Part shown: in pieces, positions 4,279-64,000 of the stretch | Layout of the letters: the number at the start of each line of letters is the position of its first letter | Numbering within the stretch: the stretch's first letter is position 1 | DNA from: Rhizobium binae | Lineage (GTDB): Bacteria; Pseudomonadota; Alphaproteobacteria; Rhizobiales; Rhizobiaceae | NCBI RefSeq assembly: GCF_017357225.1 | Contig: NZ_CP071604.1 | Location: forward strand, 2,793,001 to 2,857,000 | Direction: 5' to 3' | Length of the DNA stretch: 64,000 nucleotides | The notes under the pieces: generated by a model | What the model saw: the letters and a program-made list of their open reading frames with translations, nothing else | Databases searched by the model: none | What the model was told of the DNA's origin: nothing | Made by a program: the position numbers and the translations under genes

Positions 4279-5277
4279 TCAGACTTCATCCTGCGGTGCG
4301 CGAAGGGGCCTCGAAGGATCATCCTGAGGTGCCCCGAAGGAGCCTCGACGGACGAGGGCGGGTGATCGGAGTATCGCCGAGGCGACGACGACTTCCGTTC
4401 CGGCGAGGCCCACCGAGCAGAACAGCGTCATCTCCTCGGACGATCGTCGGCCGGCCGCTTTCCCGGCAATGATGTCGGCAAGATCGACCATGCGATCATC
4501 GGCGCCGGAGCCGGCGAGGAAAAACTGCGAAGCATAGGCACGTGCCTGTTCGGGAGAATCCGTTGCGATCACGGCCGCGGCATCGGCGACATCCAACCCG
4601 AGTTCATATCCTTGAAGCGTCTTCGGGCCGACAGTGGTGACATGCACGCCGAGCTTCAAATCCGGGGAATGGATGACAGGTGTTTGGCTCGTGGTCGCAC
4701 AGATGACGATGTCGGCGTCATCAACGGCTTTCGAGACGCTGTCGACCGGCTCCACATCAAGCCCCAGGGCGTGCTGCATCTCGCTTGCGAAGGCTGCGCG
4801 ATTTATCTCGTCGCGGCTATAGACGCGAACACGGCCGAGGTTGCGAACGGCCGCCGCCGCGGCAAGCTGGGTTCGCGCCTGCGCCCCACTGCCGATGATC
4901 CCGACATTCCTGGCATCAGGCCCGCTGAGATGGCGGACGGCGAGCCCTCCGATCGCACCGGTCCTGAGGCTGCCGAGGCGCTCGCCGAGAATGACGCCCT
5001 CAAGCCTGGCGTCGTCGGCCGACCACACGGCGACGATCTGCGTATGCTCCGCCCCTTTGAATGTGTCGTAGACGCGAAAACCCGCGATCGGCGTCTCACC
5101 CATGAGGCCACCAACAGTGAAAACGAGATCGCCTCGATCGGGAAACGAAACATGATGCCGAGGCGGCGAGATCAGGCGATTGCCGGCTCTCGCGAGAAAG
5201 GCGGCCTCGAGCGCGTCGATAGCGATGGACATCAACACGCCGCCGGCCAGATCCTCGTCTCTCAGAATCTTTGTCAT
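4279..5277 (-). CDS. ornithine cyclodeaminase / mu-crystallin family protein
   Basis: This is a 332-residue member of the ornithine cyclodeaminase family, which includes NAD-dependent lyases, ketimine reductases and amino-acid dehydrogenases. Visible features are the LRTGAIGGLAVRHLS segment around residue 105-120 and a nucleotide-binding GIIGSGAQARTQL near 125-137. The ATG at 5277 follows GGGAGGTGCGCG, a good ribosome site, so the upstream ATG at 5301 was not used. The family normally ends soon after GLAGTEVVVASAI; the last 25 or so residues here are read from an intergenic repeat (4285-4363). The reaction cannot be fixed from sequence alone. Confidence 0.8.
   Translation of the reverse strand: MTKILRDEDLAGGVLMSIAIDALEAAFLARAGNRLISPPRHHVSFPDRGDLVFTVGGLMGETPIAGFRVYDTFKGAEHTQIVAVWSADDARLEGVILGERLGSLRTGAIGGLAVRHLSGPDARNVGIIGSGAQARTQLAAAAAVRNLGRVRVYSRDEINRAAFASEMQHALGLDVEPVDSVSKAVDDADIVICATTSQTPVIHSPDLKLGVHVTTVGPKTLQGYELGLDVADAAAVIATDSPEQARAYASQFFLAGSGADDRMVDLADIIAGKAAGRRSSEEMTLFCSVGLAGTEVVVASAILRSPALVRRGSFGAPQDDPSRPLRAPQDEV
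4285..4363. repeat. rhizobial intergenic palindromic repeat, copy A
   Basis: Two tandem units share the pattern CATCCTG-GGTGC-CGAAGG-GCCTCGA-GGA. The same pattern recurs at 31479-31613, 32830-33030 and 41908-41980. The repeat overlaps the 3' end of the ornithine cyclodeaminase family gene and is translated as its C-terminal tail. Confidence 0.7.
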
Positions 5278-5375
5278 CGCGCACCTCCCGCTCGTTGCCA
5301 CATCCTGCGACCCAAACCGCGGTTGAGGTCAAGAGTTGAAATAAACCACTACGCGAAGAAAAATCCGAGCAATGG

Positions 5376-5882
5376 CTATTCGACGATGCGGCGCGCCATC
5401 ATCACGTCGTCGATCTCCCTGCCCTCCTCCAGCACCCCGCCGGGAATTCTGCCGATCTCCGAGAAACCCTGACGTTGGTAGAACCGAATTGCCGCTGGGT
5501 TCTCCGCGCTGACGAACAGTTCCAGCTGCCGGACACCGATATCAAGCGCGTGCTCCGAGATTGCCTCCAGCAGCTTTCCGGCAAGGCCCGTTCCACGCAG
5601 CTCCGCGCGAACATAGACCATGACGATGGTGGCGCGATGGATCATCTTGCTCGACCGCTGCCGAAGCAGGCCCATAATACCGACCGGTTCGCCATTCTGA
5701 AACGCGACAAAAACCGGGTCACTCAACCGATCGCGCCACTCCTCGATGGAAAGAGCCTCCCAGTCTTCGTAGCGGCTTGCAAAAAGGGACGGTTCGGCGT
5801 GTAGCGCTTCCAGACGGACGCGCCTGAAAGACTCCACCTCGTCTGCCGTGATCTTCCTGATCGTTATGCCGTCCGCGTCCAT
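5376..5882 (-). CDS. GNAT family N-acetyltransferase
   Basis: This is a 168-residue GNAT-fold acetyltransferase, which transfers an acetyl group from acetyl-CoA to an amine. The N-terminal ITIRKITADEVESFRRVRLEAL and the acetyl-CoA loop region (VYVRAELRGTGLAGKLLEA, residues 88-107) are typical, as is the late AIRFYQRQGF motif. The ATG at 5882 is preceded by GCAGGAGATCTCG, a strong ribosome site, so the extra 19 residues up to 5939 were left out. The substrate is unknown. The gene follows the ornithine cyclodeaminase family gene in the opposite reading order on the same strand and is probably transcribed alone. Confidence 0.8.
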   Translation of the reverse strand: MDADGITIRKITADEVESFRRVRLEALHAEPSLFASRYEDWEALSIEEWRDRLSDPVFVAFQNGEPVGIMGLLRQRSSKMIHRATIVMVYVRAELRGTGLAGKLLEAISEHALDIGVRQLELFVSAENPAAIRFYQRQGFSEIGRIPGGVLEEGREIDDVMMARRIVE

Positions 5883-6013
5883 CGAGATCTCCTGCGATAT
5901 GGAGGAGACCGTCATTGCAGAGGGACAGGGACGATGCAAGCGGTGGCGATGACTGAGGCTCGCGCTTCCGATACCCTGTCACGCGCGCGAAGAGCGGCGC
6001 TCCGCTGGCGACA

Positions 6014-6409
6014 CTACGGTGGCGTTCCCACCCGGCCGCCCTTCCGGACGCCCGATTGATCAGGCTGCCCTACCTCAGGTGCGTTCGTTGGCCGGAGGTC
6101 CCATTGATCGGGCGGTCGGACGGCGGGATGGTCCGGTGCCGGTTCGGGTGTCGACCGGACGACCAGATCATCTGGCTGGCCGGCTGGCGCGGTCGCCGCC
6201 TCGTCGGCGGACCAACCGGTCGTTTGATTGCTTGGCTGGCCGATCTTGGACGGCGCGATCTCATGGATGACGACGAGAAGGATTACCCCGACCGCGGAGC
6301 ACACGAGTGCATAGAGAACGAAATATTTCAGTGCATATCCCTCGCCATTGACGGAACGACATCGACATGACCGCGAATGATATTTCGCGTATATTTGATG
6401 GATACTCAC
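6014..6409 (-). CDS. hypothetical single-pass membrane protein with proline-rich tail
   Basis: Up to 131 residues, with one strong membrane segment (FVLYALVCSAVGVILLVVIHE) followed by a low-complexity hydrophilic tail rich in Pro, Gln and Asp with repeated GQP and PDQ pieces. The ATG at 6409 has no clear ribosome site. A GAGGGA sequence sits 6 nt before a CTG just ahead of the membrane segment, so a shorter protein starting with a rare codon is possible. The tail DNA is internally repetitive (many GGCCGG/GATCGG steps), which suggests repeat expansion. I do not recognise it. Confidence 0.45.
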   Translation of the reverse strand: MSIHQIYAKYHSRSCRCRSVNGEGYALKYFVLYALVCSAVGVILLVVIHEIAPSKIGQPSNQTTGWSADEAATAPAGQPDDLVVRSTPEPAPDHPAVRPPDQWDLRPTNAPEVGQPDQSGVRKGGRVGTPP

Positions 6410-6572
6410 AAAAAGGCAATAGATTTTAAGATTTCTCGAAATCTAAGCAGCGAGTAGCGCGAAACTATTCACCATACAAAGAAAACATCTCGCGCGAAGC
6501 TCGATTTTATCTTGGAGATCGCGGTAAAGGCGAAATGCCCACCCAAGGCTGAATATTGCCGGTGGCGCCCGC

Positions 6573-7393
6573 TCAGCTCCTCCGATATCGCGCCCTGAAC
6601 TGGCTGGGACTGCAGCTCTCGCGCTCATGAAACAGACGCGAGAAATAGAAAGCGTCGTCGATGCCGACCTTGGCGGCGATGGTTTCGATCTTTTCGTCCG
6701 TGGTGACAAGCAACTGCTTGGCATGGTCCATGCGCGACCGAAGCTGGAAAGCCTTGGGTGGCAGGCCGGTTTCGGCCAGGAATCTGCGCCGGAGCGTGGC
6801 GGCAGACATGCCGTGTTCGGCGGCGAAGTCCGCAAGGTCGAGCGGCTGCAGCGCCCTGCCCCGCAGCGTCTCGACGATATCGCCAGTCATCGCCTCGCCT
6901 TCGCGGCGCGGAGCAGCCCTGGTCTGCCGCGCGGCAGCAATCACGATGCGATGCAGCGTCAATGCCGCCAGGCCCGCCCGAGATGGCTATCGTCCATGAG
7001 ATCGGCATGCAACTGCCCGAAGAGCCGCGCCACCTCTTCGGGATGGCGCAGCGCCACGAGCGGATGGCGTTCGGCAATCAGCCGCATCCGCACGAGATCG
7101 CGGATGAACGAGCCCTCAAACAGCGCCCAGCGCTCCTCCCAACCGTTTTCATCAGGCCCATAGGAGTGGAAGCGGTTTGGAAACAACCAAAAGAGCGCCG
7201 GCCCGCCCACGCTCTGGCGCCCACCGGCGGCGGTATCGAGAAAACCCCACCCGCGCTCCACCAGCACGACGGCGAAACTCGGCAGTTTTCTGTGCGCTAC
7301 CGCATGGCGCGCATGCTGCCTGCCGCTGCCGGTGACGGCAAGCCCGCCTGCCGCGGCGAGCGGAGATCGATAGACCGCTTGAGTTTCTCTCAT
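6573..7393 (-). pseudogene. AraC family regulator split by a frameshift
   Basis: Two minus-strand frames together make one AraC-type regulator of about 270 residues. The 5' part (7393-6959, 144 residues) is the cupin-like effector domain with LFWLFPNRFHSYGPD and ends in RAWRH-stop. The 3' part (6962-6573) continues with LTLHRIVIAAARQ and carries both helix-turn-helix units, including MSAATLRRRFLAETG and GIDDAFYFSRLFHE. The stop of one frame overlaps the TTG of the other, and a single-base shift near 6960 would restore a continuous protein. It lies divergent to the dioxygenase gene at 7488, its likely former target. A sequencing error would look the same. Confidence 0.75.
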
Positions 7394-7487
7394 GAGCGAA
7401 AAGTCCAGTTGCAGTTTTCATCCATGGCGATTGGCCGCGCGCCAGCAACAAATTGAACGCATATGAAGTCAGGCCAGGATAAATGAA

Positions 7488-8411
7488 ATGTCAATTGCCG
7501 CGAACGCCGCCGGGATGAGAACGATGCGAGCGCCCCTCACGGCGCAAGACAGGACGATCCCGGCGGAAAGGCTTGGTCTGCTTCAGCCGACCGACCCGGC
7601 CATCGGTATCGAGGCCATCCGCCGCCGCTATGAGGAGGACGGTTATGTCTGGCTGAAAGGCCTTTTGCCGCGCGCCGAAGTGATCGATTTTCGACGCTGG
7701 GTCTTCTCCCATCTTGCCGAAACCGGCCTGCTGGCAACAGGCCATGATTTTGCTCTCGGCATTGCCGCTGCCGAAGGCGTCGACTGGAGTCTGGCCGACC
7801 GGCGCCTGATGTCGATCGTCCGCGCGGCGGCTTATGAAGGCTTCTGCGCCCAGCCGCCGCTCGTGCGCTTCATGGACGCCTTTCTGCAAGGCATTTCCTA
7901 TCTCCATAAGCGCAAGCTGATGCGCTATACCAGGCCCGGCACGGCAACGGCCACCCCAGCCCATTACGATCTCGTCTATCTCCGCGGCGGCACCAGCCGG
8001 CTGGTGACTGCCTGGATTCCGATCGGCGACGTCCCCGTCGAAATGGGCGGCCTCGTCTATCTCGAAGGCTCGCACGCCATCGGGCGGGGGATGGAGGCCG
8101 AATTCCGGCGCCGCAGCGGCGATCTACCGCCGGAGGATCAGATCAGCGCCTATAACAGCCATATGGCCGAAGGCGGCTGGATCTCGAAAGATCTGCCCGA
8201 TATGGCCGAACGCTTCGATACCCGCTGGCTCGCCACCGATTACGAAGCAGGTGACGTGGTTCTGCATTCGCCCTACATGATCCACGCCGCCACCACCAAT
8301 CGGGATCCCGCCGGATGTCTTCGCCTCTCCACCGACATCCGCTTCCAGAATGTCGATGACGAAATCGACGCCCGCTGGAACAATCACTGGAGCCTCGGAG
8401 ACATGCTGTAG
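7488..8411 (+). CDS. phytanoyl-CoA dioxygenase (PhyH) family protein
   Basis: This is a 307-residue Fe(II)/2-oxoglutarate-dependent dioxygenase of the PhyH family. The iron ligands are visible as His159 and Asp161 (AHYD) and His266 (SPYMIHAATTN), and an Arg in the following LRLSTDIRFQ would bind 2-oxoglutarate. Members hydroxylate diverse small molecules, including secondary-metabolite and sugar substrates, so the substrate here is open. It stands divergent to the broken AraC gene with a 94-bp shared promoter region. The ATG at 7488 is weakly supported by a GATAAATGAA context. Confidence 0.8.
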   Translation: MSIAANAAGMRTMRAPLTAQDRTIPAERLGLLQPTDPAIGIEAIRRRYEEDGYVWLKGLLPRAEVIDFRRWVFSHLAETGLLATGHDFALGIAAAEGVDWSLADRRLMSIVRAAAYEGFCAQPPLVRFMDAFLQGISYLHKRKLMRYTRPGTATATPAHYDLVYLRGGTSRLVTAWIPIGDVPVEMGGLVYLEGSHAIGRGMEAEFRRRSGDLPPEDQISAYNSHMAEGGWISKDLPDMAERFDTRWLATDYEAGDVVLHSPYMIHAATTNRDPAGCLRLSTDIRFQNVDDEIDARWNNHWSLGDML

Positions 8412-8649
8412 CGCCATGCGGGCAACGAAAAGACCCTGCGCCTATCCGATCGCCCCGAAGACCTCAGCCGCCACGCGTTTTTTGATTTCCGGCTGAATGC
8501 ATCACGAAGCCATGCCCGCGTGTCGTCGTGGCCGCCTGTTCATAGGAGCGGCAAGACAGCATCGGCAATATCGGCTAGACTGCCTGCGTCAACGGCTTGC
8601 ATTGTGGAGGTCCTGTCGGGGGCCGGCGGCCGTTGGCGCGGGGGATCCA

Positions 8650-10065
8650 ATGTCGGCAATCGCAATTCTGTTTCAGGAGGCCGCCCGGCTTGCTGCCGGG
8701 TTTCGGGAAACGGCCTTTGCCCGCCATGTCCCAAGCAGCGATTACGCCGCCTCCCTTGCCGTCTTCGACGAGCCGCTTTCGGCGGCCGGCTCCGATATGC
8801 TCGATGTCATCCGGCAGCTCTCCGACGGTGCCGAACCCGGGCTACATGCAACCACTGGCCCACGCTTTTTCGGCTGGGTCATCGGCGGCTCCCATCCGGT
8901 CGGCGTCGCAGCCGATTTCCTCACCGGCGCCTGGGGCCAGAATGCCGGAAACCATGTCGCCGCTCCGGCCGCGGCTGCGGTGGAAACCATAGCGACGCGA
9001 TGGCTTCTCGATCTCCTAAAACTGCCGGCCGAAAGCTCTGTCGGCTTCGTGACCGGCGCCACAGTGGCAAATTTCACCTGCCTCGCCGCTGCCCGCGGCG
9101 AGGTACTGCGCAAGGTCGGCTGGAATGCCGATGCCGACGGCCTGTTCGACGCGCCGGCAATCACCGTGCTGATCGGCGACGACGCCCATACGACCGTCTT
9201 CTCCGCGCTTCAGTTCCTCGGTCTTGGGCATGACCGTGTGCTGCGCCTGCCCACCGACGCCATGGGCCGGATCGACCCGGCCGCACTTCCCGGTGCCCTT
9301 GACGAGGCCACCGGTCCTTTGATCGCCATTCTCCAGGCCGGTCAGATCAATACCGGCGCTTTCGACGATTTTGACAGGCTCATCCCGCCGCTGAAGGCGA
9401 AGGGCGCCTGGGTGCATGTCGACGGCGCATTTGGACTGTGGGCGCAGGCATCTGCGAAGGTGAGCCATCTCAGCCGCGGCATCGAAGGGGCCGACAGCTG
9501 GGCGACCGACGGCCATAAATGGCTGCAGACGCCCTATGATTGCGGCTATACGATCGTCCGCGACGAACTCGCCCATCGCCGCGCCATGACGATCGCCGCA
9601 AGCTACCTGCCGCTCGCCGACGAAGGTGAACGTGACCCCTCCCATTACGTGCCGGAGCTTTCGCGACGGGCACGCGGTTTTGCCACCTGGGCGATGCTGA
9701 AACATTTCGGCCGCAACGGCGTTGAAGCCCTCATCGACCAATGTTGCGCCTCGGCCCGCCTGATGGCAGACCGGCTCGCAAGCGAACCCGGCATCACCAT
9801 TCTGAACGAGGTCACGCTGAATCAGCTCATCGTCCGTTTCGGAGCCGATCGCCCGGACGACGAAAGCAACGCGCTGACGCGAAAGGCGATCGAAAAGATC
9901 CAGGCGGACGGCATCCTCTTCGCCGGCGGCGCCAAATGGCGCGGCCGCGACGTCCTGCGCCTCTCCGTCAGCAATTACCAGACGACATCGGATCAGGCGG
10001 AACTGGCGGCGGAGAGCATCATCGCTGCCTTCAGGAACGTCAGCAGTGATGCTTTCCGGCGCTAA
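8650..10065 (+). CDS. pyridoxal-phosphate-dependent decarboxylase (group II type)
   Basis: This is a 471-residue fold-type I PLP enzyme related to glutamate and aromatic-amino-acid decarboxylases. The stacking His is in GDDAHTTV (residue 180), the PLP-nitrogen Asp in HVDGAFG (residue 258), and the Schiff-base lysine in TDGHKWLQ (Lys290). The ATG at 8650 follows GGGGGATCCA; the frame runs upstream to 8497 but the added sequence is Arg-rich and unlike the family. It is 238 bp downstream of the dioxygenase on the same strand, so the two may act together on an amino-acid-derived compound; that is inference. The substrate cannot be assigned. Confidence 0.8.
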   Translation: MSAIAILFQEAARLAAGFRETAFARHVPSSDYAASLAVFDEPLSAAGSDMLDVIRQLSDGAEPGLHATTGPRFFGWVIGGSHPVGVAADFLTGAWGQNAGNHVAAPAAAAVETIATRWLLDLLKLPAESSVGFVTGATVANFTCLAAARGEVLRKVGWNADADGLFDAPAITVLIGDDAHTTVFSALQFLGLGHDRVLRLPTDAMGRIDPAALPGALDEATGPLIAILQAGQINTGAFDDFDRLIPPLKAKGAWVHVDGAFGLWAQASAKVSHLSRGIEGADSWATDGHKWLQTPYDCGYTIVRDELAHRRAMTIAASYLPLADEGERDPSHYVPELSRRARGFATWAMLKHFGRNGVEALIDQCCASARLMADRLASEPGITILNEVTLNQLIVRFGADRPDDESNALTRKAIEKIQADGILFAGGAKWRGRDVLRLSVSNYQTTSDQAELAAESIIAAFRNVSSDAFRR

Positions 10066-53111: not shown

Positions 53112-54758
53112 ATGCGGAAAGTTCCTGCTGCCCGTTTAGCCCTCGGAAAGCCGGAGGCAGAGAGCTTGATCGACCGGCTGTTGTTCTTTGACCGCGATTT
53201 CAATCCCATCGAGGATCTGCACGGCAATGTGCTGCCCTCATCCGTCAAGCCAGCCGCGTCCTTCTGGGAGCATTTTCCGGAGCTGGACAAATCAGCAATT
53301 ACGCTCGCTCTCCGTTCGCTGGATGATAATTCCCAGCCTTTGCGCATATCGGGCGATCTCGGCGCCCCCGGCGCAAACGGCTTGACGATATACCGGATCG
53401 GCGACCTGTTTGCCGTCGTCCGATCCGAGGAACGAATTGACGACGAACGCGCAACGCTTTTGCATCTGGCGACCCATGATCCGCTGACCGGACTGCCGAA
53501 CCGGCGCCAGTTCAGCGAAGATCTGACCGCCCTGTTGCAGGAAACCCAAGGCGCGAGCGAGACTCTGTCGCTGATGCAGCTCGACCTTGACGATTTCAAA
53601 CCCGTCAACGACACGCTCGGGCATGCCGTCGGCGATAAGCTTCTTCAATCGGCGGCAAGGCGTATTCTTGCCTGCCTTTCCAGCGATGACAGAGCCTATC
53701 GGCTGGCCGGTGATGAATTCACGGTGATATCGGTGGGCTCGGGACATCCCGCCAAAGCGCACCGTTTGGCGGACGATCTGGTTGCCGCGTTCAAAAAGCC
53801 CTTCATGCTCGATGGCATCGCCGTCTTTGTCGGCACCAGCATCGGCATATCCACGGCTCCACCGGACGGGACAACTCCGGAGGAGCTCATGAAGGCGTCC
53901 GACCTTGCGCTCTATACTGCCAAGAAAGAGGGGCGCGGTCGGGCAAAAGCCTTCGACCCGGCAATGCTTGAACTGCTGGAGCAGCGGGAACTGCTGCGCC
54001 GCAGCCTGCGCATGGCCCTGGTGCAACAGCAATTCTATGTCGAATACCAGCCCATCGCAGAGGGCGGGTGCATCGTCGGCTTCGAAGCATTGCTGAGATG
54101 GCACCATCCCCTGCTCGGAAAGATCCCGCCGGCGTCGTTCATTCCGATGGCCGAGGCGGATGGAATGATGCCCGAGATCGGCGCGTGGGTTTTGGAGCAG
54201 GCATGCCATGAGGCGATGAAGTGGCCCGAGAGCTGCATCGTCGCCGTCAATCTGTCAGCGGCGGAGTTCCTGACAAGCGGCCTCACCGACCGAATTTCCC
54301 AGACGCTGGACCTTGTCGGACTTCCGCCCGAACGCCTCGAGCTCGAAATAACCGAAAGCGTGCTGCTCGAGCGGACCGTCAACAACATCGACACCCTGAA
54401 CACTCTCAATGTGCTGGGCATCCGGATTTCTCTTGATGATTTCGGGACGGAATATTCGTCCCTGAGCTATCTGAAAACATTCCCTTTCGATACGATCAAA
54501 ATCGACAAATATTTTATCACCGATCTCGAAACCGACCTCAAAAGCCAGGCTATCGTCCGCTGCATCGTCAACCTTGCGCATGACCTCGGCATGCAGGTGA
54601 CGGCCGAGGGGGTCGAGACGCCGGGTCAGGCGGAATGGTTGCACAGCGTCGGCTGCGACAGGCTGCAGGGCTATTTGTTGAGCAGGCCGCTTGCCGTGGA
54701 GGCAATTGACGAATTCATTACCCGCGCGGACGCATCCAAGATCCACGCTCGACGATAG
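53112..54758 (+). CDS. GGDEF-EAL c-di-GMP signalling protein
   Basis: This 548-residue protein has a PAS-like N-terminus (about 1-110, SLIDRLLFFDRDFNPIEDLHG), a GGDEF domain (115-280) with AGDEF at 199-203, and an EAL domain (295-545). The AGDEF form often keeps diguanylate cyclase activity. The EAL domain has EALLRW (325-330), AVNLSA, LEITES, SLDDFG, IKIDK, TAEGVET and QGYLLSRP, so all phosphodiesterase metal ligands appear present. No membrane segment is seen. It lies 75 bp upstream of a partner-switching operon in the same direction, the strongest hint of its role. Confidence 0.88.
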   Translation: MRKVPAARLALGKPEAESLIDRLLFFDRDFNPIEDLHGNVLPSSVKPAASFWEHFPELDKSAITLALRSLDDNSQPLRISGDLGAPGANGLTIYRIGDLFAVVRSEERIDDERATLLHLATHDPLTGLPNRRQFSEDLTALLQETQGASETLSLMQLDLDDFKPVNDTLGHAVGDKLLQSAARRILACLSSDDRAYRLAGDEFTVISVGSGHPAKAHRLADDLVAAFKKPFMLDGIAVFVGTSIGISTAPPDGTTPEELMKASDLALYTAKKEGRGRAKAFDPAMLELLEQRELLRRSLRMALVQQQFYVEYQPIAEGGCIVGFEALLRWHHPLLGKIPPASFIPMAEADGMMPEIGAWVLEQACHEAMKWPESCIVAVNLSAAEFLTSGLTDRISQTLDLVGLPPERLELEITESVLLERTVNNIDTLNTLNVLGIRISLDDFGTEYSSLSYLKTFPFDTIKIDKYFITDLETDLKSQAIVRCIVNLAHDLGMQVTAEGVETPGQAEWLHSVGCDRLQGYLLSRPLAVEAIDEFITRADASKIHARR

Positions 54759-54833
54759 TGCTTTACCGGCTTTTCGCCATGCTTATAGATCGCATGCAAA
54801 TCTGACGCTCCAGACAGACGAAAGGAGGGTGTA

Positions 54834-55340
54834 TTGGAAGAGGAAGCATCCCGCTTCGACGACCACGCATTTGTGCCGATGGTATCGCTGGAAATGAACG
54901 TTGCGATGTTCAAATCTCAATGGCAGTTTTGCGACGAGATCACCGAATATCTCTCCGACATTCTCGGCCAAGGTCACAGCGATCCCGCGCGCTACGGCAA
55001 CTTTCTTTCAGTCGCGGCAAATGAACTCATCGAACTCGCTTTCCGTGCGACAAACGGACGCGGCAAGATAAGTTTCAACCTCGCTCGCAGCGCCACCTAC
55101 AATCGGCTGCGAATTGCGTTCCCTTGCGATGAGGAGTTTCGCCGCAAGCACGTGGAGGCAGGATCCGGCGAAATCCAGCCTCGCCTCGACGACGGGTCCG
55201 GTCACCTGGTCACGACATCCGATGGTGCTTTGCTCAGCAATTTGGCGACTATATTCGGCGCCGCCATCCATATCGAGAAGGACGGCGCGGACAGGATCGG
55301 TATCATCGCCGATTTCCCCTCGGCCGAGGATTTTCAATGA
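54834..55340 (+). CDS. HATPase-like (SiaB/DUF6272-type) protein, degenerate
   Basis: This 168-residue protein resembles the small serine-kinase-like ATPase proteins of partner-switching modules (SiaB, slr1658-type). The N-box region reads AANELIELAFRATNGRGKI, without the second Asn seen in active copies. The G-box region (TSDGALLSNLATIFGAA) lacks GxGLG. ATP binding is therefore doubtful. It starts with TTG at 54834 after a strong AAAGGAGGGTGTA. It overlaps the next gene by ATGA. It could be a kinase-dead antagonist for one of the two STAS domains. Confidence 0.6.
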   Translation: MEEEASRFDDHAFVPMVSLEMNVAMFKSQWQFCDEITEYLSDILGQGHSDPARYGNFLSVAANELIELAFRATNGRGKISFNLARSATYNRLRIAFPCDEEFRRKHVEAGSGEIQPRLDDGSGHLVTTSDGALLSNLATIFGAAIHIEKDGADRIGIIADFPSAEDFQ

Positions 55341-56503
55341 CCCTGCTGCCCTTCACCGTGCGGTTTGATCCGACAAATCAGGAGGTCGTTCTGTCCGGCA
55401 AGATGCGGCCCGAAAGTGCTGCCGAGATTGCCGATGCGCTCGAACTGGTCCGGCAGAGTTTGGAAAAATACAGCGGCATCGTCTACCTCAACGTCAAACG
55501 TCTGACGCATATCAACATGACGGCCTTCACCGCTCTGTGCGACATCCTCGCGGCCGGCTGCCGAACGAGGCCGGAACGGAACATCAAGATCGTTACCTCG
55601 AGCGTGATGGCATGGTCTGCCTCGCTGTTCGAAATGCTGGCGACATCGCTGCCGAACCTGTCGGTCGAGGTTTACGATTCGGCGTTTTATCCCGGCCAGA
55701 GTTTTGTCGAGGACGAGTCCTTCATTCCCATCCTGCGCACGCAGACGAAAATGACCTGGAGGCATGAGCGCGAACTCTTGCCGCGCCACGGTCTGCGCAG
55801 CGGACTTGCTATGGCGGATATCTGCTGCGGCATCGGTGATTTCGCGGCCCTGGTTCAGCGGGAATTCAAACCGGCGCGCCTTGTCGCACTGGATCATTCC
55901 GTGCGCAGTCTCGACTATGCCCGCAGGGTCGCAGCCGACTTCGATCTGCAAGGCATCGAATATACCTATGGCGACGCCTCCCAGATGCTTCTCAAAGACG
56001 ATCAGTTCGACTTTGTCACCTGCCGGCACTCGCTGCAGATTTTCGACCGCCCCGAGATGCTGCTGCGGGAGCTTTATCGCATCTGCAAGCCCGGCGGCCG
56101 TGTTTACATCACGAACGAAAAGAATTCGCACTGCCTGGGCGAGCCGCACGCCGAATCGATAAAATGGACTTACGAGGAAGTCGCCAAGCTGTTCAGCCAC
56201 TTCGCCATGGATGTCGAGATGGGACCGAAAAGCCGCCATCTTCTCCTCAACGCCGGCTTCGATGACATCAAGGTCGACTGCTTCATGGTGACGAATCTCG
56301 ACGGCGATCCCCAGGACTTCGCAGACATCATCGAAGCCTGGGAAAATGTCTATGCAGGCGAGATGGCGGTGCGCCGCGGCGACTCGGCGGATTTCATTCG
56401 CCGTTTCCGGCAGGGATTCAAGGATCACGTCTTTGCCGCCCTTCACCCCAAGGGTTATGCCGGCTGGCCGATCTGGGCAGCCTCTGGTCGAAAGCCGCTA
56501 TGA
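55337..56503 (+). CDS. STAS domain fused to a SAM-dependent methyltransferase
   Basis: This 388-residue fusion has a STAS-like domain at residues 1-135. Its phospho-acceptor loop reads LTHINMTAFTAL, with Thr62 where anti-anti-sigma factors have Ser. Residues 145-388 form a class I methyltransferase with motif I DICCGIGDFA (161-170), a motif-II-like acidic turn (VALDHSV), and the FDFVTCRHSLQIFDRPE and CKPGGRVYIT blocks of Rossmann methyltransferases. The substrate is unknown. Overlaps with both neighbours (ATGA) make it the coupled centre of the operon. I know no described system with this fusion. Confidence 0.75.
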   Translation: MTLLPFTVRFDPTNQEVVLSGKMRPESAAEIADALELVRQSLEKYSGIVYLNVKRLTHINMTAFTALCDILAAGCRTRPERNIKIVTSSVMAWSASLFEMLATSLPNLSVEVYDSAFYPGQSFVEDESFIPILRTQTKMTWRHERELLPRHGLRSGLAMADICCGIGDFAALVQREFKPARLVALDHSVRSLDYARRVAADFDLQGIEYTYGDASQMLLKDDQFDFVTCRHSLQIFDRPEMLLRELYRICKPGGRVYITNEKNSHCLGEPHAESIKWTYEEVAKLFSHFAMDVEMGPKSRHLLLNAGFDDIKVDCFMVTNLDGDPQDFADIIEAWENVYAGEMAVRRGDSADFIRRFRQGFKDHVFAALHPKGYAGWPIWAASGRKPL

Positions 56504-58860
56504 TGGACGAGCACGTATCGAAGAGACCGGTGGGACTTGGCTCGTTTCGAGCAAAGTTCATCCTGGTCGTCGGCGGCGCCGTCCTCTTTGACCTGCTGGT
56601 CAGCGGTGGCCTGGCACTCTGGAACGTTCAGAGGCTGTCGCGCGATGCAACGCTCGAGGTTGGCCAGGGCCTTGAAGCCGCAAGTCAGGAATATATCCGC
56701 ACCTATGCCGACTCCACTGCGGCCCAGGTGAATTTGCTGCTGCGGCAGGTTCACAATGACGTCGACACTCTTGCAGGCGTGCTGCAGTCGCAGATCGACA
56801 ATCCCGCTCGCAATTCCGATGTCGGCACGGCGATCGCCCGCACATCTCCCGGCAGCGTCAGCCTGATTTACGACGAAAGGGGAAAATGGTCTCAGAACGC
56901 GCCCGGCTCCGCTTCGGTCGTCAGCGTCTGGGGTTACCTGCTCGGCGAGGACCACCAGCCGAGGCCCGACATTGCGCGCGATATAGAGACAAGCGCGGTG
57001 CTCGACCTCGTTGCGCCCAGCCTGCTGCAGCATGGCGCCTCAAAACTGCAGATGTATTACATCGGATCGAAAGAACGGCCGATCTTCAGGACCGCGCCCT
57101 ACACCGACCAGGCCCAGACCTTCGACCGGCTCTATCCCGGCCACAACGACGCGAATTTCTGGGACTTCTTTTTCCCCGGGCTTTATGAGTCCTGGCAGAG
57201 CTGGGCCAAGAATGGGGAAAGCCGGCCGGTCGCCGAAGACATCACCCAGACGGCGCCTTATACGGATGCCATTACCGGCAAGCTGATCGTCAGTTTCTTT
57301 CATCCGCTCTGGACAGCCGACAGGAAGGATGTCGCCGGGACGGCCGGCGCCGATATTACGCTCGATCAACTCGCCCAGACCGTGGAAAACGTCAAAGTGG
57401 CACAGTCCGGCTTCGGATTCCTGGCAATGTCCGACGGAAACGTTGTGGCAATCAACGCCACGGGCGAAAAGACGCTCGGCCTGGTTTCTGCGAGCGATGC
57501 CAGCGGAACCGGCGTGACCGGGCTGGAGCGCTCCCTGAAAGGAAGCTCACAGCCGGCCATCGCGAAACTGGCGCTCGACCGCGAACAGGGCATTCAGCAC
57601 CTGCTGTTGCAGCGAGACGGCAAAGAAGTTCCCTATATCGTCATCGTCAAGAAACTCCCTGCGACCAATCTCTGGTCTAGCGGCCCGGTTCGGCAAGAGG
57701 CGATGCTGCTTGGAGTGGTTGTGCCGGAACGGGAAATCGACGCCTCCCTCTATGCCGCCCAGGCCAAGATTTCCGAGGCCACCAACCGGATCGTGATCTA
57801 CCAAATCCTGGCAATCCTGATGTCGCTGCTGATCGTGACGATCGCTGTGTTTGCGGCTTCGAAGCGCATCACGAGCGGGATCAGCGCCCTTGCCGGCGCC
57901 GCCAAGCGGATCCAGGCGCAGGACTATTCCGTCAGAGTGGCGATAACGAGCAAGGATGAGGTCGGTGCCGCCGGTGAAGCCTTCAATAGGATGGCCGAAC
58001 AGATCAGCTATCACACCGAAAATCTCGAACAGCTGGTCGAGGAACGAACGGCCCAGATCGAAGATGCCAAGGAAGAGATCTCGGCGCTGAACGCACAGCT
58101 TCAGCGGGAAAACCGCCGGCTTGGAACGGAACTCGCCGTTGCTGAGCGAATCCAGCTCATGGTTCTGCCGCTGCAACAGGAACTGGAAGACTTTCAGGAC
58201 ATCGAGATCGCAGCCTATATGCGACCCGCGGAAGAAGTCGGCGGTGATTATTACGACGTCCTGAAGAACGGCAGGCGGTTGAAGATCGGCATCGGCGACG
58301 TCACCGGCCATGGGCTCGAAAGCGGCGTGCTGATGCTGATGGTCCAATCCGTCGCCCGCGCCCTGCAGGAAGCAGGAAACACCGACGCTGTCGAATTTCT
58401 GGCCAATCTGAACAGCGCCCTGTTCAAAAACATCGAGCGGACCAGGATCGACAAGCATCTGACCCTCGCCTTTCTCGACTATGACGGCAAAGACATGATC
58501 CTGTCAGGACAGCACGAGGAAGTCGTGATCGTGCGGGCGAACGGCGAGATTCAACGCATCGACACCATGGATCTCGGCATCCCGATCGGGTTGGAAGCCG
58601 ATATTTCCGCTTTCATCAAAACCCGCGAAATCGCGTTCGAGAAAGGCGACCTGATACTCCTGCACACCGACGGCGTGACAGAAGCCGAAAACGATGCGGG
58701 AGAATTGTTCGGCATCGAACGCCTGTGCCGAGAAGCGCTCCGCTTGAAGGATCAGAGCGCTGAGAAAGTCGTTTCGGAAATTGTCGCGACTTTAATGCTC
58801 TTTATCGGATCACAGAAGATCTACGACGACATCACGCTTCTCGCAGTGCGGCATAGGTGA
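56500..58860 (+). CDS. membrane sensor SpoIIE-type (PP2C) phosphatase with Cache and HAMP domains
   Basis: This 786-residue protein has a membrane segment near residues 20-42, a periplasmic double-Cache-like sensor domain (about 55-425), a second membrane segment (429-451), HAMP (453-505), a coiled coil (505-550, QIEDAKEEISALNAQLQRE) and a PP2C/SpoIIE phosphatase (555-785). Metal ligands are visible in EVGGDYYDV, GIGDVTGHG, LHTDGVTEA and YDDITLL. It resembles SiaA of Pseudomonas, which dephosphorylates a STAS-like partner. The ATG overlaps the methyltransferase stop by 4 nt. Its targets should be the STAS domains at 55337 and 59432. Confidence 0.85.
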   Translation: MMDEHVSKRPVGLGSFRAKFILVVGGAVLFDLLVSGGLALWNVQRLSRDATLEVGQGLEAASQEYIRTYADSTAAQVNLLLRQVHNDVDTLAGVLQSQIDNPARNSDVGTAIARTSPGSVSLIYDERGKWSQNAPGSASVVSVWGYLLGEDHQPRPDIARDIETSAVLDLVAPSLLQHGASKLQMYYIGSKERPIFRTAPYTDQAQTFDRLYPGHNDANFWDFFFPGLYESWQSWAKNGESRPVAEDITQTAPYTDAITGKLIVSFFHPLWTADRKDVAGTAGADITLDQLAQTVENVKVAQSGFGFLAMSDGNVVAINATGEKTLGLVSASDASGTGVTGLERSLKGSSQPAIAKLALDREQGIQHLLLQRDGKEVPYIVIVKKLPATNLWSSGPVRQEAMLLGVVVPEREIDASLYAAQAKISEATNRIVIYQILAILMSLLIVTIAVFAASKRITSGISALAGAAKRIQAQDYSVRVAITSKDEVGAAGEAFNRMAEQISYHTENLEQLVEERTAQIEDAKEEISALNAQLQRENRRLGTELAVAERIQLMVLPLQQELEDFQDIEIAAYMRPAEEVGGDYYDVLKNGRRLKIGIGDVTGHGLESGVLMLMVQSVARALQEAGNTDAVEFLANLNSALFKNIERTRIDKHLTLAFLDYDGKDMILSGQHEEVVIVRANGEIQRIDTMDLGIPIGLEADISAFIKTREIAFEKGDLILLHTDGVTEAENDAGELFGIERLCREALRLKDQSAEKVVSEIVATLMLFIGSQKIYDDITLLAVRHR

Positions 58861-58863
58861 GAC

Positions 58864-59424
58864 ATGACGGCCAAAACATACGGTCTCGAATCTCTAGTGG
58901 ACATCAGCTTGGATTCAGGCGCTCGCCTCACGCTGAGCGATGGGCCGCTTCAGCTTGGATGGCGGCATTCGGGAATGACGTCGGACTTCATCGCCGAGAT
59001 CATGGCTATGCCCTATTCCCGTTCGCGGAAGGATTACCTGCAGGCGCATCATGACATCGGATATCTCAGTAACGAGCTGATCGAAAACGCAGTCAAATTT
59101 CGACAGCCCGGCGAGATCTTGATCGAAGCCGGCATGGTCGAGGGAAGCTTTTTGATCAGGGTGCGGAACGCCATCGACAGTGAGACATCGTCTCGCTTTC
59201 AACAGCTCCTGCAACGCCTGCAATCCAAGGAACCGAGCGTTCTGCTTCTTGAGCAAATCGAAACCAACGCCATATCGTCAGCAGGCGGTTCCGGCCTGGG
59301 TTTGCTGACCCTTCTGAGCGATTACGATGCAAGAATGGCATGGACATTCGAAGAAAATAACGACCAGCACATCATACTGACGACGACGGCAGCCGTGGCG
59401 ATGCCACCCTCCTCCAATTTGTGA
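58864..59424 (+). CDS. SiaB/slr1658-type HATPase-like kinase
   Basis: This 186-residue protein has a complete-looking GHKL ATPase signature: N-box LSNELIENAVKF (two Asn in the right spacing) and G-box AGGSGLGLLTLL. This order and size match SiaB (DUF6272) and slr1658-type regulators, which phosphorylate a partner STAS protein on Ser or Thr. It starts 3 nt after the phosphatase stop and 7 nt precede the STAS gene, so the kinase and its likely substrate are neighbours. It is the active counterpart of the degenerate protein at 54834. Confidence 0.72.
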   Translation: MTAKTYGLESLVDISLDSGARLTLSDGPLQLGWRHSGMTSDFIAEIMAMPYSRSRKDYLQAHHDIGYLSNELIENAVKFRQPGEILIEAGMVEGSFLIRVRNAIDSETSSRFQQLLQRLQSKEPSVLLLEQIETNAISSAGGSGLGLLTLLSDYDARMAWTFEENNDQHIILTTTAAVAMPPSSNL

Positions 59425-59431
59425 GCCAAGA

Positions 59432-59770
59432 ATGGAAATCAGCGACGAAAACTTCCGCGTATGGGCGGAGAAGAATGAAGTCTTTTTCGACGGCGTGTTC
59501 CGCCTGGCGGGGCCTGATGCCTATGCGCCGATTTATTCATTGATAACAACCCTCCTTCACGATGGGCACAAGCAGGTGACCTTCGACCTGACCGGTCTCG
59601 AATTCCTCAATTCCTCGGGCATCAATCTCCTGGCGAAACTGACGATCGAAGCAAGGAAAATGGGCGACCTTCTGCTTATTGTGAAAGGCACCAACCAACA
59701 TCCCTGGCAGGCGAAATCACTGCCGAATCTGAAGAAGTTGCACCCGCTTCTCGATTTGCGCCTGGCCTGA
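59432..59770 (+). CDS. stand-alone STAS (anti-anti-sigma-like, slr1659-type) protein
   Basis: This 112-residue STAS protein has the phosphorylation loop TFDLTGLEFLNSSGINLLAKL, where Ser61 or Ser62 would be phosphorylated by the kinase before it and dephosphorylated by the SpoIIE phosphatase. It is the last gene of the operon. In SiaABCD the phospho-state of the equivalent SiaC controls a diguanylate cyclase; here the GGDEF-EAL protein at 53112 is a plausible output. The ATG at 59432 lies close behind the preceding stop. Confidence 0.78.
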   Translation: MEISDENFRVWAEKNEVFFDGVFRLAGPDAYAPIYSLITTLLHDGHKQVTFDLTGLEFLNSSGINLLAKLTIEARKMGDLLLIVKGTNQHPWQAKSLPNLKKLHPLLDLRLA

Positions 59771-60281
59771 GTTGGAGCGAACCCGTTTCGGCCGGAGTTT
59801 GAGGGGTGATGACCACCCCGATCTCCGCCATGCTCGGCCTTGAGCTGCCTCGAGCCGAGCATCCATACGGTTCACTAGGCCAGCGGCATGGGTCCTCGGG
59901 TCAAGCCCTGGTCAAACTTGGCCGCCTCAAAAAGCATGCCGCATCTCTGATGGTAACCGGTGCTCCGCTCCCAGTCGTCCCGCCGCCCTGATCTGCGGCC
60001 GCAACTCCATGAACGAGCAACTACCTCCGTGAAAGTGTATGCTGTAGCCGGCACAATCTCTCACCCAATCGGATGATTGGAATTACTGGTCCGGACTATA
60101 GCCTAAAACCTTCCGACGACTCGACGCGAGATGTCGGTGATCGGGCTCGATCTTCGCGACGCACTTTTTATTTAAGGAGCATGCCCGAGCAAGCAGATGT
60201 GGCTGGTGTAAAGGAGCCTTCATGGATGGAGCAGCCATGAACGGTCCGTAGGCCCATCGGACGATGCCCAAAGGCAACAAC
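59771..60281. other. intergenic region with an inverted repeat and a mini-ORF
   Basis: These 511 bp have no regular gene. ATGCTCGGC (59830-59838) and GCCGAGCAT (59854-59862) form a 9-bp stem that could terminate the signalling operon. A nine-codon frame, 60222-60251, starts after AAAGGAGCCTTC just upstream of the esterase gene and may act as a leader. The region 60085-60180 contains AT-rich tracts that probably hold the esterase promoter. Confidence 0.4.
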
Positions 60282-61220
60282 ATGCGCAAAACAAAAGCAA
60301 TCGGCCTAACGGCCTTGATCGCCCTGTATCTTGTCGGCGGCTTCAGCGCGAGACATGGAATCTTTCCTTGGCCGCAGCTTTCCGCGTTGAGGAAAATGGT
60401 TGGCGCAGAGAAGGCGGCGGCGTCAAGCCGTTATACTTTCGACGACAAGGAACGACTCATCGGGGATGAATCAAAAGCGTCCGTGACCTGCCCGACGCAA
60501 ACTGATCGAACTGCTGTCTTGCTGCTTCTTGGTCAATCGAACGCCGCCAACGAGGGCGGACAACGGTACCGGTCACATTATGGGGCTCGCGTGGTAAACG
60601 CCTTTGACAAACGGTGCTTCATCGCGGCATCGCCGCTTCTCGGATCGACCGATGCCAAGGGAGAGTACTGGACGCTTCTCGCCAACGAATTAATCGAATC
60701 GGGACAAAATGACAGCGTCATCCTCGCACCTCTCGCCTATTCCGGATCTGAGGTCGCCCGATGGGCGGCAGGCGGTGACCTCAATGCTGTGCTGATCGAA
60801 ACAACGAAACAGCTTCAGGCTTCCGGCTACCGGGTAACGAGCGTTCTCTGGGTGCAAGGAGAAAAAGACCTCGTTATGGGAACCACTGCGGAGGCCTATC
60901 GGGAATATTTCCTGTCGATGGTCGACACATTGCGTCAGCACGGCGTCGAGGCACCGGTTTACATTTCGATCGCATCGAAATGCCTCGAACCGAGCAACGG
61001 CGGCTTCAAGGAGCATTTTGCAGACAATCCGATCGTACGGGCGCAACTGTCCCTGCCAAAAAGCGGGCACGGTATCCGAGAGGGCGTAAATTCTGACGCG
61101 CTACTCGACGGAGACGACCGCTACGACGATTGCCATATCGGGGGCACCGGCGCGGAGAAGGTCTCGCTGGCCTGGCTGAACCTGCTGCGCGGCGATCGCC
61201 GACCAGAAACCTCGCGATAG
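60282..61220 (+). CDS. exported SGNH/sialate-O-acetylesterase-like protein
   Basis: This 312-residue protein begins with a membrane or signal segment (AIGLTALIALYLVGGFSA) and carries the esterase motif LLLLGQSNAANEGGQRY (nucleophile Ser in GQSN) and a C-terminal DDRYDDCHIGGTGAEK (Asp and His of the triad), with VLWVQGEKD in between. This is the SASA/DUF303 type carbohydrate acetyl-esterase fold. It could deacetylate an exopolysaccharide or other glycans outside the cytoplasmic membrane. The ATG at 60282 follows AAAGGCAACAAC; the ATG at 60264 is an alternative. Confidence 0.7.
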   Translation: MRKTKAIGLTALIALYLVGGFSARHGIFPWPQLSALRKMVGAEKAAASSRYTFDDKERLIGDESKASVTCPTQTDRTAVLLLLGQSNAANEGGQRYRSHYGARVVNAFDKRCFIAASPLLGSTDAKGEYWTLLANELIESGQNDSVILAPLAYSGSEVARWAAGGDLNAVLIETTKQLQASGYRVTSVLWVQGEKDLVMGTTAEAYREYFLSMVDTLRQHGVEAPVYISIASKCLEPSNGGFKEHFADNPIVRAQLSLPKSGHGIREGVNSDALLDGDDRYDDCHIGGTGAEKVSLAWLNLLRGDRRPETSR

Positions 61221-63417: not shown

Positions 63418-64000
63418 TCAAGCCGCCTTCCCAACCACCGCCTCGCCCATCGCCTGCGGCTTGCCGAGCAGATAGCCCTGCGCCTCGTCGCACTGTTCTT
63501 CGAGCAGCGTATCGAGCTGCGCCTGCGTCTCCACGCCTTCGGCCAGCACCGGCACTTCAAGGCTGCGGCCAAGCGCCAGGATGGCGCGGACGATGGCCTT
63601 GGATTGGGGGCTGGTCTCGACCTCGGCCATGAAGCTCTTGTCGAGCTTGATCTTGTCGAAGGGGAAGGAGCGCAGCGTTTCCAGCGAGGAGTAACCGGTG
63701 CCGAAATCGTCGATGGCGATCGAGACGCCGAGCGCCTTGATCTCCCGCATCGTGCGCAGCGCCTTCTCCTTGTCGACGATGATCGAGCTTTCGGTGATCT
63801 CGATTTCAAGACGGTGCGGGTTCAAGCCGGTCTCAGCGAGGATGGCTGAGATGACGGCAGCCATGTCGGCATGGCCGAGCTGGACCGGCGACAGGTTGAC
63901 GGCGATCTTGTAGCCGTTGTTCCAGCTCGCCGCCTCCCGGCAGGCTTCCCTGAGCACCCACTCGCCGATCGGCAGGATCGCGCCGCATTCCTCGGCAAGC
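63418..64000 (-). CDS. EAL-domain protein (3' part, gene runs off the right edge)
   Basis: The minus strand is open from the window edge to a stop at 63418, giving about 193 residues. It holds the second half of an EAL phosphodiesterase domain: IPIG-like ILPIGEWVLREACREAASW, KIAVNLSPVQL, LEIEITESSI, AIDDFGTGYSSL, FDKIKLDKSF, LAEGVETQAQL and QGYLLGKPQ. All visible catalytic positions match active c-di-GMP phosphodiesterases. Whether GGDEF or sensor domains precede it lies outside the window. It is a second c-di-GMP enzyme within 10 kb of the signalling cluster. Confidence 0.88.
   Translation of the reverse strand, partial: LAEECGAILPIGEWVLREACREAASWNNGYKIAVNLSPVQLGHADMAAVISAILAETGLNPHRLEIEITESSIIVDKEKALRTMREIKALGVSIAIDDFGTGYSSLETLRSFPFDKIKLDKSFMAEVETSPQSKAIVRAILALGRSLEVPVLAEGVETQAQLDTLLEEQCDEAQGYLLGKPQAMGEAVVGKAA

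Follow-up and report, generated by a model that had tools for sequence, protein, structure and literature searches.

Partner switches are known to control sigma factors and, more rarely, diguanylate cyclases. In Sinorhizobium meliloti, bgrR (SMb20447) reportedly heads an operon of six genes, bgrRSTUWV (Baena et al.), in which unphosphorylated BgrV was reportedly proposed to inhibit BgrR; the operon is reportedly also found in some strains that make no glucan. Two citing papers describe S. meliloti bgrRSTUWV as a partner switch modulating the diguanylate cyclase BgrR, and report that phosphorylation of BgrV controls the cyclase activity of BgrR (PMC8457831, PMC7647112). In SiaABCD of Pseudomonas aeruginosa, according to the same papers (PMC7647112, PMC8457831), a STAS-like protein that is the target of a phosphatase/kinase pair controls the activity of a diguanylate cyclase. 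Here we analyze a window of 64 000 nucleotides from Rhizobium binae (NCBI RefSeq assembly GCF_017357225.1, contig NZ_CP071604.1, positions 2,793,001 to 2,857,000), which carries six intact open genes at positions 53112-59770 of its forward strand, as judged from a program-made list of open reading frames with translations. The finding is an orthologue of the already described bgrRSTUWV operon, in which the least explained part is the arm formed by BgrS and BgrT, the methyltransferase of BgrT above all.

The six genes and their counterparts in S. meliloti

We name the six genes, all on the + strand, after their S. meliloti counterparts. Gene 1 (bgrR orthologue; 53112..54758, 548 amino acids) encodes a GGDEF-EAL protein, with Pfam matches of 149 bits to GGDEF and 241 bits to EAL. 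After 75 nucleotides comes gene 2 (bgrS; 54834..55340, 168 amino acids), a small HATPase-like pseudokinase by alignment and by its relatives, whose TTG start is preceded by AGGAGG. It overlaps gene 3 by four nucleotides (-4, ATGA). Gene 3 (bgrT; 55337..56503, 388 amino acids) joins an slr1659-like STAS domain (residues ~1-115) to a class I S-adenosylmethionine (SAM) methyltransferase domain (~155-388; 66 bits), and a second overlap of the same kind (-4, ATGA) leads into gene 4 (bgrU; 56500..58860, 786 amino acids), a membrane phosphatase of the dCache-HAMP-SpoIIE (PP2C) layout with matches of 132 bits to SpoIIE, 44 bits to HAMP and a weak 31 bits to dCache_1, below its cut-off of 45. Gene 5 (bgrW; 58864..59424, 186 amino acids), an intact HATPase kinase, and gene 6 (bgrV; 59432..59770, 112 amino acids), a STAS protein, follow at spacings of +3 and +7 nucleotides. 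A first-pass annotation, made from the letters alone, had described six same-strand genes in this domain order with the last five closely packed, and the open frames, domain matches and spacings bear it out. Its reading as a partner-switching operon also holds, with a membrane phosphatase, one intact HATPase beside a degenerate one, a pair of STAS domains, an extra methyltransferase and a cyclic di-GMP (c-di-GMP) enzyme.

Genes 5 and 6 belong to the slr1658 and slr1659 superfamilies, scoring 163.1 bits with NF047703 and 122.4 bits with NF047705, respectively (cut-off 100 for both). The N-terminus of gene 3 scores 37.2 bits with NF047705 and gene 2 scores 16.6 bits with NF047703, both below the cut-off. 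Because genes 5 and 6 pass and gene 2 and the start of gene 3 are sub-threshold relatives of the same families, the operon can be read as a kinase/STAS pair plus a diverged copy of that pair, in which the second STAS domain is fused to a methyltransferase. Profile comparison using hhalign backs such paralogy more strongly between the STAS domains of genes 3 and 6 (probability 93.5%, E-value 2.2e-7) than between the HATPases of genes 2 and 5 (probability 43%, E-value 2.4e-4), where it is suggestive at most. Stronger support for gene 2 as a probable slr1658 relative comes from its homologues, which match NF047703 at 24.6-49.3 bits (cut-off 100) in 26 of 31 operon-bearing genomes of the family, the window copy not being among them. 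The earlier label of a degenerate HATPase for gene 2 holds by alignment and relatives, and draws no backing from Pfam (no match at E-value <= 0.1) or from the NF047703 score; a structure model of the protein has a predicted local distance difference test score (pLDDT) of 74. In the PDB, the kinase of gene 5 found no match by sequence and nothing convincing by profile, the STAS protein of gene 6 found weak matches, and the 27 sequences matched by the methyltransferase are assorted methyltransferases that give no pointer to its substrate. Rfam gave no match at gathering score.

The same six genes stand in the same order and on the same strand on pSymB of S. meliloti 1021 (NC_003078, 459.0-465.6 kb), with identities of 59, 29, 69, 70, 49 and 58% to window genes 1 to 6. 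This removes the claim that the operon is an undescribed branch. The order of the gene letters also matches, with the phosphatase fourth (U), the kinase fifth (W) and the STAS protein sixth (V). Since the window's genome and the S. meliloti-like genome G296, with a BgsA 98% identical to the S. meliloti 1021 protein, have one SpoIIE match each, the phosphatase of this operon (E-value <= 0.001 in the window's genome), no rival SpoIIE protein is left for the role of BgrU. We also reject a duplicate of the switch in the window's genome, which has one SpoIIE match and one slr1658 match. Apart from the species, the two operons differ in BgrS, at 29% identity, and in their distance from the gene for the mixed-linkage beta-glucan synthase BgsA: the S. 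meliloti operon lies ~53 kb from the gene taken as bgsA (L163:8636-10645), whereas the window's genome has a BgsA homologue on a different contig from the operon. Between the window's clade and other Rhizobium clades, identity falls to 25-29% for BgrS but stays at 68-71% for the adjoining bgrT, and the BgrS of locus L048 is 71% identical to the S. meliloti copy.

The gene order had been expected to recur in relatives, and it does. Of 24 same-genus genomes, 19 encode the STAS-methyltransferase at full length, and all 18 of the loci examined there keep the six-gene order (the nineteenth contig is only 3 kb long); bgrR and bgrS overlap by 4 nucleotides in two of them, given start codons chosen by script. 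A search of the genome_contigs collection gave 193 relatives, of which the best 80 were kept, mostly Rhizobium with Agrobacterium, Sinorhizobium and Ensifer; 79 of these have the six genes in order and the 80th is cut by a contig end. Recurrence on this scale is far beyond chance. Across the family, a search with BgrT finds the operon in 31 of 297 genomes (14 of 109 genera), and the slr1658-type kinase exceeds its cut-off in the same 31; the kinase also does so in 3 of 337 class-sample and 7 of 349 phylum-sample genomes (overlapping sets), and in none of 14 control genomes. Among 16 genomes of other families in the order, the best BgrT match has an E-value of 5.6e-11, and the matches are centred on the methyltransferase half.

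For a closer comparison we assembled 135 loci (the window, L031-L128, L161, L235-L236, L243-L270 and L278-L282), a partly redundant set in which genomes may recur. They fall into two types: 120 have bgrR, 15 have a divergent second SpoIIE phosphatase upstream of bgrS, and none has both or neither. Among 23 family genomes of the bgrR type, 22 have one SpoIIE match above 100 bits and one (G119) has two.

Residue conservation and the proposed working of the switch

Residues were counted over distinct sequences, split into the c-di-GMP (bgrR) type and the PP2C2 (second-phosphatase) type. The GGDEF site of BgrR reads AGDEF in 104/104 sequences. Its EAL motif is kept in 103 of 104, and N/E/DD/E/Q and the lysine of the KID motif in all 104; we take these to be the catalytic residues of the EAL domain. 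On these motifs, cyclase and phosphodiesterase activity are both possible for BgrR. The catalytic motifs of BgrU are conserved as well. BgrW has the N-box asparagine in 103/103 c-di-GMP-type and 13/13 PP2C2-type sequences (116/116), and BgrV has LNSSGIN in 90/90 and 11/11 (101/101). The second serine of the NSSG motif, Ser62, is presumably the phospho-acceptor, as in SpoIIAA. The N-box asparagine is absent from BgrS in 120/120 sequences, its place being taken by L, M, V, I or F in the 105 of the c-di-GMP type and by T in the 15 of the PP2C2 type, and BgrS is unlikely to be an ordinary ATP-dependent kinase.

In BgrT, the SAM motif is DICCGIGD or a near variant in 99/99 c-di-GMP-type sequences; 13 of 14 PP2C2-type sequences are readable there, 12 with the exact motif and one with a C-to-S change. 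Most invariant columns of BgrT fall within the methyltransferase half. At the position that the hhalign alignment of gene 3 with gene 6 equates with Ser62 of BgrV, the c-di-GMP type has threonine (Thr62) in 94 of 99 sequences and the PP2C2 type has valine, isoleucine or leucine in 14 of 14. Phosphorylation of the BgrT STAS domain at this site is thus conceivable in the lineage with BgrR and not possible in the other. On the tree the difference amounts to a single covarying change rather than a series of independent events.

The scheme that follows builds on gene content, orthology, co-occurrence and residue conservation, which are observed directly. A periplasmic ligand on the Cache domain of BgrU would set its PP2C activity, and BgrV, probably at Ser62, would be dephosphorylated by BgrU and phosphorylated by BgrW. 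The phosphorylation state of BgrV would decide whether it binds the kinase BgrW or, by a direct contact we assume for this species, BgrR, and the choice of partner would set how much c-di-GMP BgrR makes or, as the EAL site is intact, breaks down. This chain, from BgrU and BgrW through BgrV to BgrR, is published in outline for S. meliloti. From anatomy and conservation we infer a second, paralogous arm, in which BgrS most likely docks the STAS domain of BgrT; the methyltransferase may then be gated by release from BgrS, tied to BgrW, to BgrV or to phosphorylation of its own Thr62 by BgrW. That the switch is linked to methylation, as the first-pass annotation proposed, is suggested only by the methyltransferase domain.

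At the far end of the first chain, c-di-GMP would switch on glucan synthesis where bgsA exists, its target in S. meliloti being BgsA. Rhizobium etli CFN42 makes mixed-linkage beta-glucan when c-di-GMP is raised artificially, according to one report (PMC9495663). At a threshold of E-value <= 1e-150, BgsA is found in 15 of the 297 family genomes: in 14 of 31 with the operon and in 1 of 266 without. Conversely, the operon occurs in 14 of 15 BgsA genomes and in 17 of 282 without BgsA (Fisher p 1e-14, kinship ignored). Within the family, BgsA is present in 14 of 23 genomes of the first operon type and 0 of 8 of the second (p 0.003, reflecting one evolutionary split). The window's genome has bgsA at G000:C4:332262-334265 (78% identity). 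In 8 of the 135 loci bgsBA lies inside the examined operon flank, upstream and divergent, upstream and codirectional, or downstream. Locus L242, from one of the 15 BgsA-bearing family genomes (G251), has bgsBA without the operon, and in L162 (S. meliloti ABS7 pSymB) the glucan-synthase gene, intact in strain 1021, is broken at ~20.6-22.7 kb.

We hold with considerable confidence that the window operon corresponds, as its orthologue in Rhizobium, to the bgrRSTUWV partner switch of S. meliloti and works as proposed. Several points weigh against this. The gene-by-gene identity with bgr rests on citing papers, gene order and single-copy logic, no SMb tag having been seen for these genes, and the choice of bgsA in strain 1021 in turn relied on its position behind an HlyD-type gene and on domains resembling cellulose synthase. 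The co-occurrence of BgsA with the operon is not corrected for phylogeny. Since 17 of the 31 operon genomes lack BgsA at the threshold, glucan is not the sole output, and in the window's genome bgsA lies on contig C4 and the operon on C1. Thr62 of BgrT gives way to methionine (three) or alanine (two) in 5 of 99 c-di-GMP-type sequences, so it is not essential everywhere. Finally, two of the 15 second-type genomes (G145 and G275) contain orphan bgrR homologues of 63-65% identity, and these copies show that bgrR can stand alone.

Operons without bgrR and the possible role of BgrT

Thirteen of the 15 loci without bgrR have all five core genes, bgrSTUWV, the other two (L250 and L270) being cut by contig ends. 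They come from Rhizobiaceae and from a second family of Alphaproteobacteria, where they are confined to one genus and to 7 of the 28 genomes searched, so the form without bgrR is seen in two families and the form with bgrR in one. The loci of that other genus are L235, L236 and L278-L282, again with the divergent SpoIIE phosphatase upstream; L235 and L236 also have an acetyl-CoA-synthetase-like gene downstream of the core. The second phosphatase was detected by Pfam in eight of the 15 loci, by the open reading frame list and tblastn in three and by tblastn alone in four. Its start lies some hundreds of bases from bgrS in Rhizobiaceae and ~1 kb away in the other family, and its length is 297-352 amino acids where measured; this size, with the SpoIIE domain filling the C-terminal part, suggests a soluble protein. 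Genome-wide, a SpoIIE match above 100 bits in a frame of 309-380 amino acids occurs in 15/15 genomes of the second type and 0/23 family genomes of the first. A homologue of it elsewhere in the window's genome was sought, and only BgrU itself was found (30% identity). A role for it in dephosphorylating BgrT is weakened by the valine, isoleucine or leucine at the acceptor position of its companion BgrT proteins. In G072 a further SpoIIE protein, in a 466-amino-acid frame, lies close behind the second phosphatase (L243:8146-10900), and three more second-type genomes (G103, G170 and G196) have an extra SpoIIE gene.

The orphan bgrR homologues lie at L286:6250-7875 (+ strand) and L287:5950-7539 (- strand), and the 14 kb examined around them contain neither other bgr genes nor bgs genes. 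They are as close to bgrR as true operon copies, which have 55-66% identity in three controls. The other 13 second-type genomes contain nothing above 47% identity to bgrR at E-value <= 1e-100, so that all 15 operons lack bgrR, and in 13 of these genomes no copy turned up anywhere at this level. In a tree of 52 ingroup rows, hand-picked from the 135 loci and built by a quick method, one branch separates the two operon types with a Shimodaira-Hasegawa-like approximate likelihood ratio (SH-aLRT) support of 100.

These observations are the case for a different account of the operon, in which BgrT is the older, general output of the five-gene core, the c-di-GMP enzyme joined later in one Rhizobiaceae lineage, and a soluble PP2C takes the place of bgrR elsewhere. 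We rate this account a serious contender that falls short of even chances. The mutually exclusive distribution of bgrR and the second phosphatase, the wider family range of the form without bgrR and the single, fully supported change on the tree all fit it. So does the kinase search, since an STAS-fused methyltransferase accompanies the slr1658-type kinase in 31/31 kinase-bearing family genomes, eight of them without bgrR in the operon. Occurrence in two families and the orphan genes, which would fit a bgrR that pre-dates its operon membership, favour the type without bgrR as the older, barring sideways gene movement. However, the outgroup branch is very long and the tree does not fix the root order of the two types, and an orphan bgrR can equally be read as a component of the system that has been displaced. 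All 135 loci were reached by way of BgrT or the genes next to it (except for the window and L161, they go back to BgrT searches or, for four genomes, kinase searches), so they cannot alone prove BgrT constant. The enzyme activity of BgrT is, moreover, a prediction.

A further point against BgrT as the general output is an operon from another class (L237 in genome G716, 4485-9140, - strand), which encodes a GGDEF protein, an slr1658-type kinase, an slr1659-type STAS protein, a periplasmic-binding-protein-like protein and a SpoIIE phosphatase. Like the window operon it has cyclase, kinase, STAS protein and phosphatase on one strand, but it has no pseudokinase, EAL domain or methyltransferase in the operon, and adds the binding-protein-like gene. 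It represents a separate joining of slr1658/slr1659 to a cyclase.

The fuller version of the same account makes BgrSTUWV a self-contained switch whose constant output is methylation, through a pseudokinase-gated methyltransferase, and BgrR a later, exchangeable add-on that arrived together with the phosphorylatable threonine in the BgrT STAS domain. We offer this version tentatively and lean towards thinking it wrong. If true, it would give a partner switch with a methyltransferase as its direct target. The substrate of BgrT would tell whether the reach of partner switches extends to methylation, and the two operon types found in nature provide a ready comparison. In the literature consulted, mostly titles and the openings of abstracts with most subscription journals out of reach, we found no form without bgrR, no covarying acceptor site and no role for the methyltransferase; a search for STAS-methyltransferase switches found, by title and abstract opening, nothing on such a switch.

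BgrS and BgrT might instead form a scaffold, a pseudokinase and an inert STAS-methyltransferase merely buffering or localising BgrV and BgrW. The missing N-box asparagine in every distinct BgrS sequence would suit such a role, as would the absence of Thr62 from all PP2C2-type and a few c-di-GMP-type BgrT sequences. An inert enzyme would hardly be expected to keep its SAM motif in both types, or to have its invariant columns mostly in the methyltransferase half, and we consider the scaffold unlikely.

Other described systems and neighbouring genes

The last reading, that of a true SiaABCD system with two duplicated parts, shares the logic of phosphatase, kinase, STAS protein and cyclase and is refuted as membership, leaving it next to no credence: every Sia model stays below its cut-off (SiaA equivalog NF038263, 113.3 bits against 700; SiaB NF038262, 21.4 against 85 for gene 5; SiaC PF09345, 14.1 against 24.5 for gene 3, with no match listed for gene 6; SiaD NF038266, 103.4 against 290), and the cut-offs that genes 5 and 6 do exceed are those of slr1658 and slr1659. 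Sia also has one kinase and one STAS-like protein, with no pseudokinase and no methyltransferase. The earlier description of the operon as Sia-like therefore survives as an analogy of logic and fails as a family assignment.

The HptB-HsbR-HsbA/HsbD system of P. aeruginosa has an input that differs from that of the Bgr switch. It is alike in that a STAS protein controls a diguanylate cyclase, a likeness taken from the description in PMC8457831. Slr1658 of Synechocystis, the namesake of the kinase superfamily, is reported in PMC7555055 to be a regulator that influences the expression of pgr5 and how cells recover from iron limitation; unlike that of the window operon, the role given there is not one in c-di-GMP signaling.

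Downstream of bgrV, positions 60264-61220 encode an SASA-type esterase (56.5 bits), which we place outside the operon because it is full-length, at 84-88%, in only 2 of the 18 loci from the genus. Close to the right end of the window, the - strand carries part of another EAL-type protein (63418-63957), recognized by eye in the open reading frame list.

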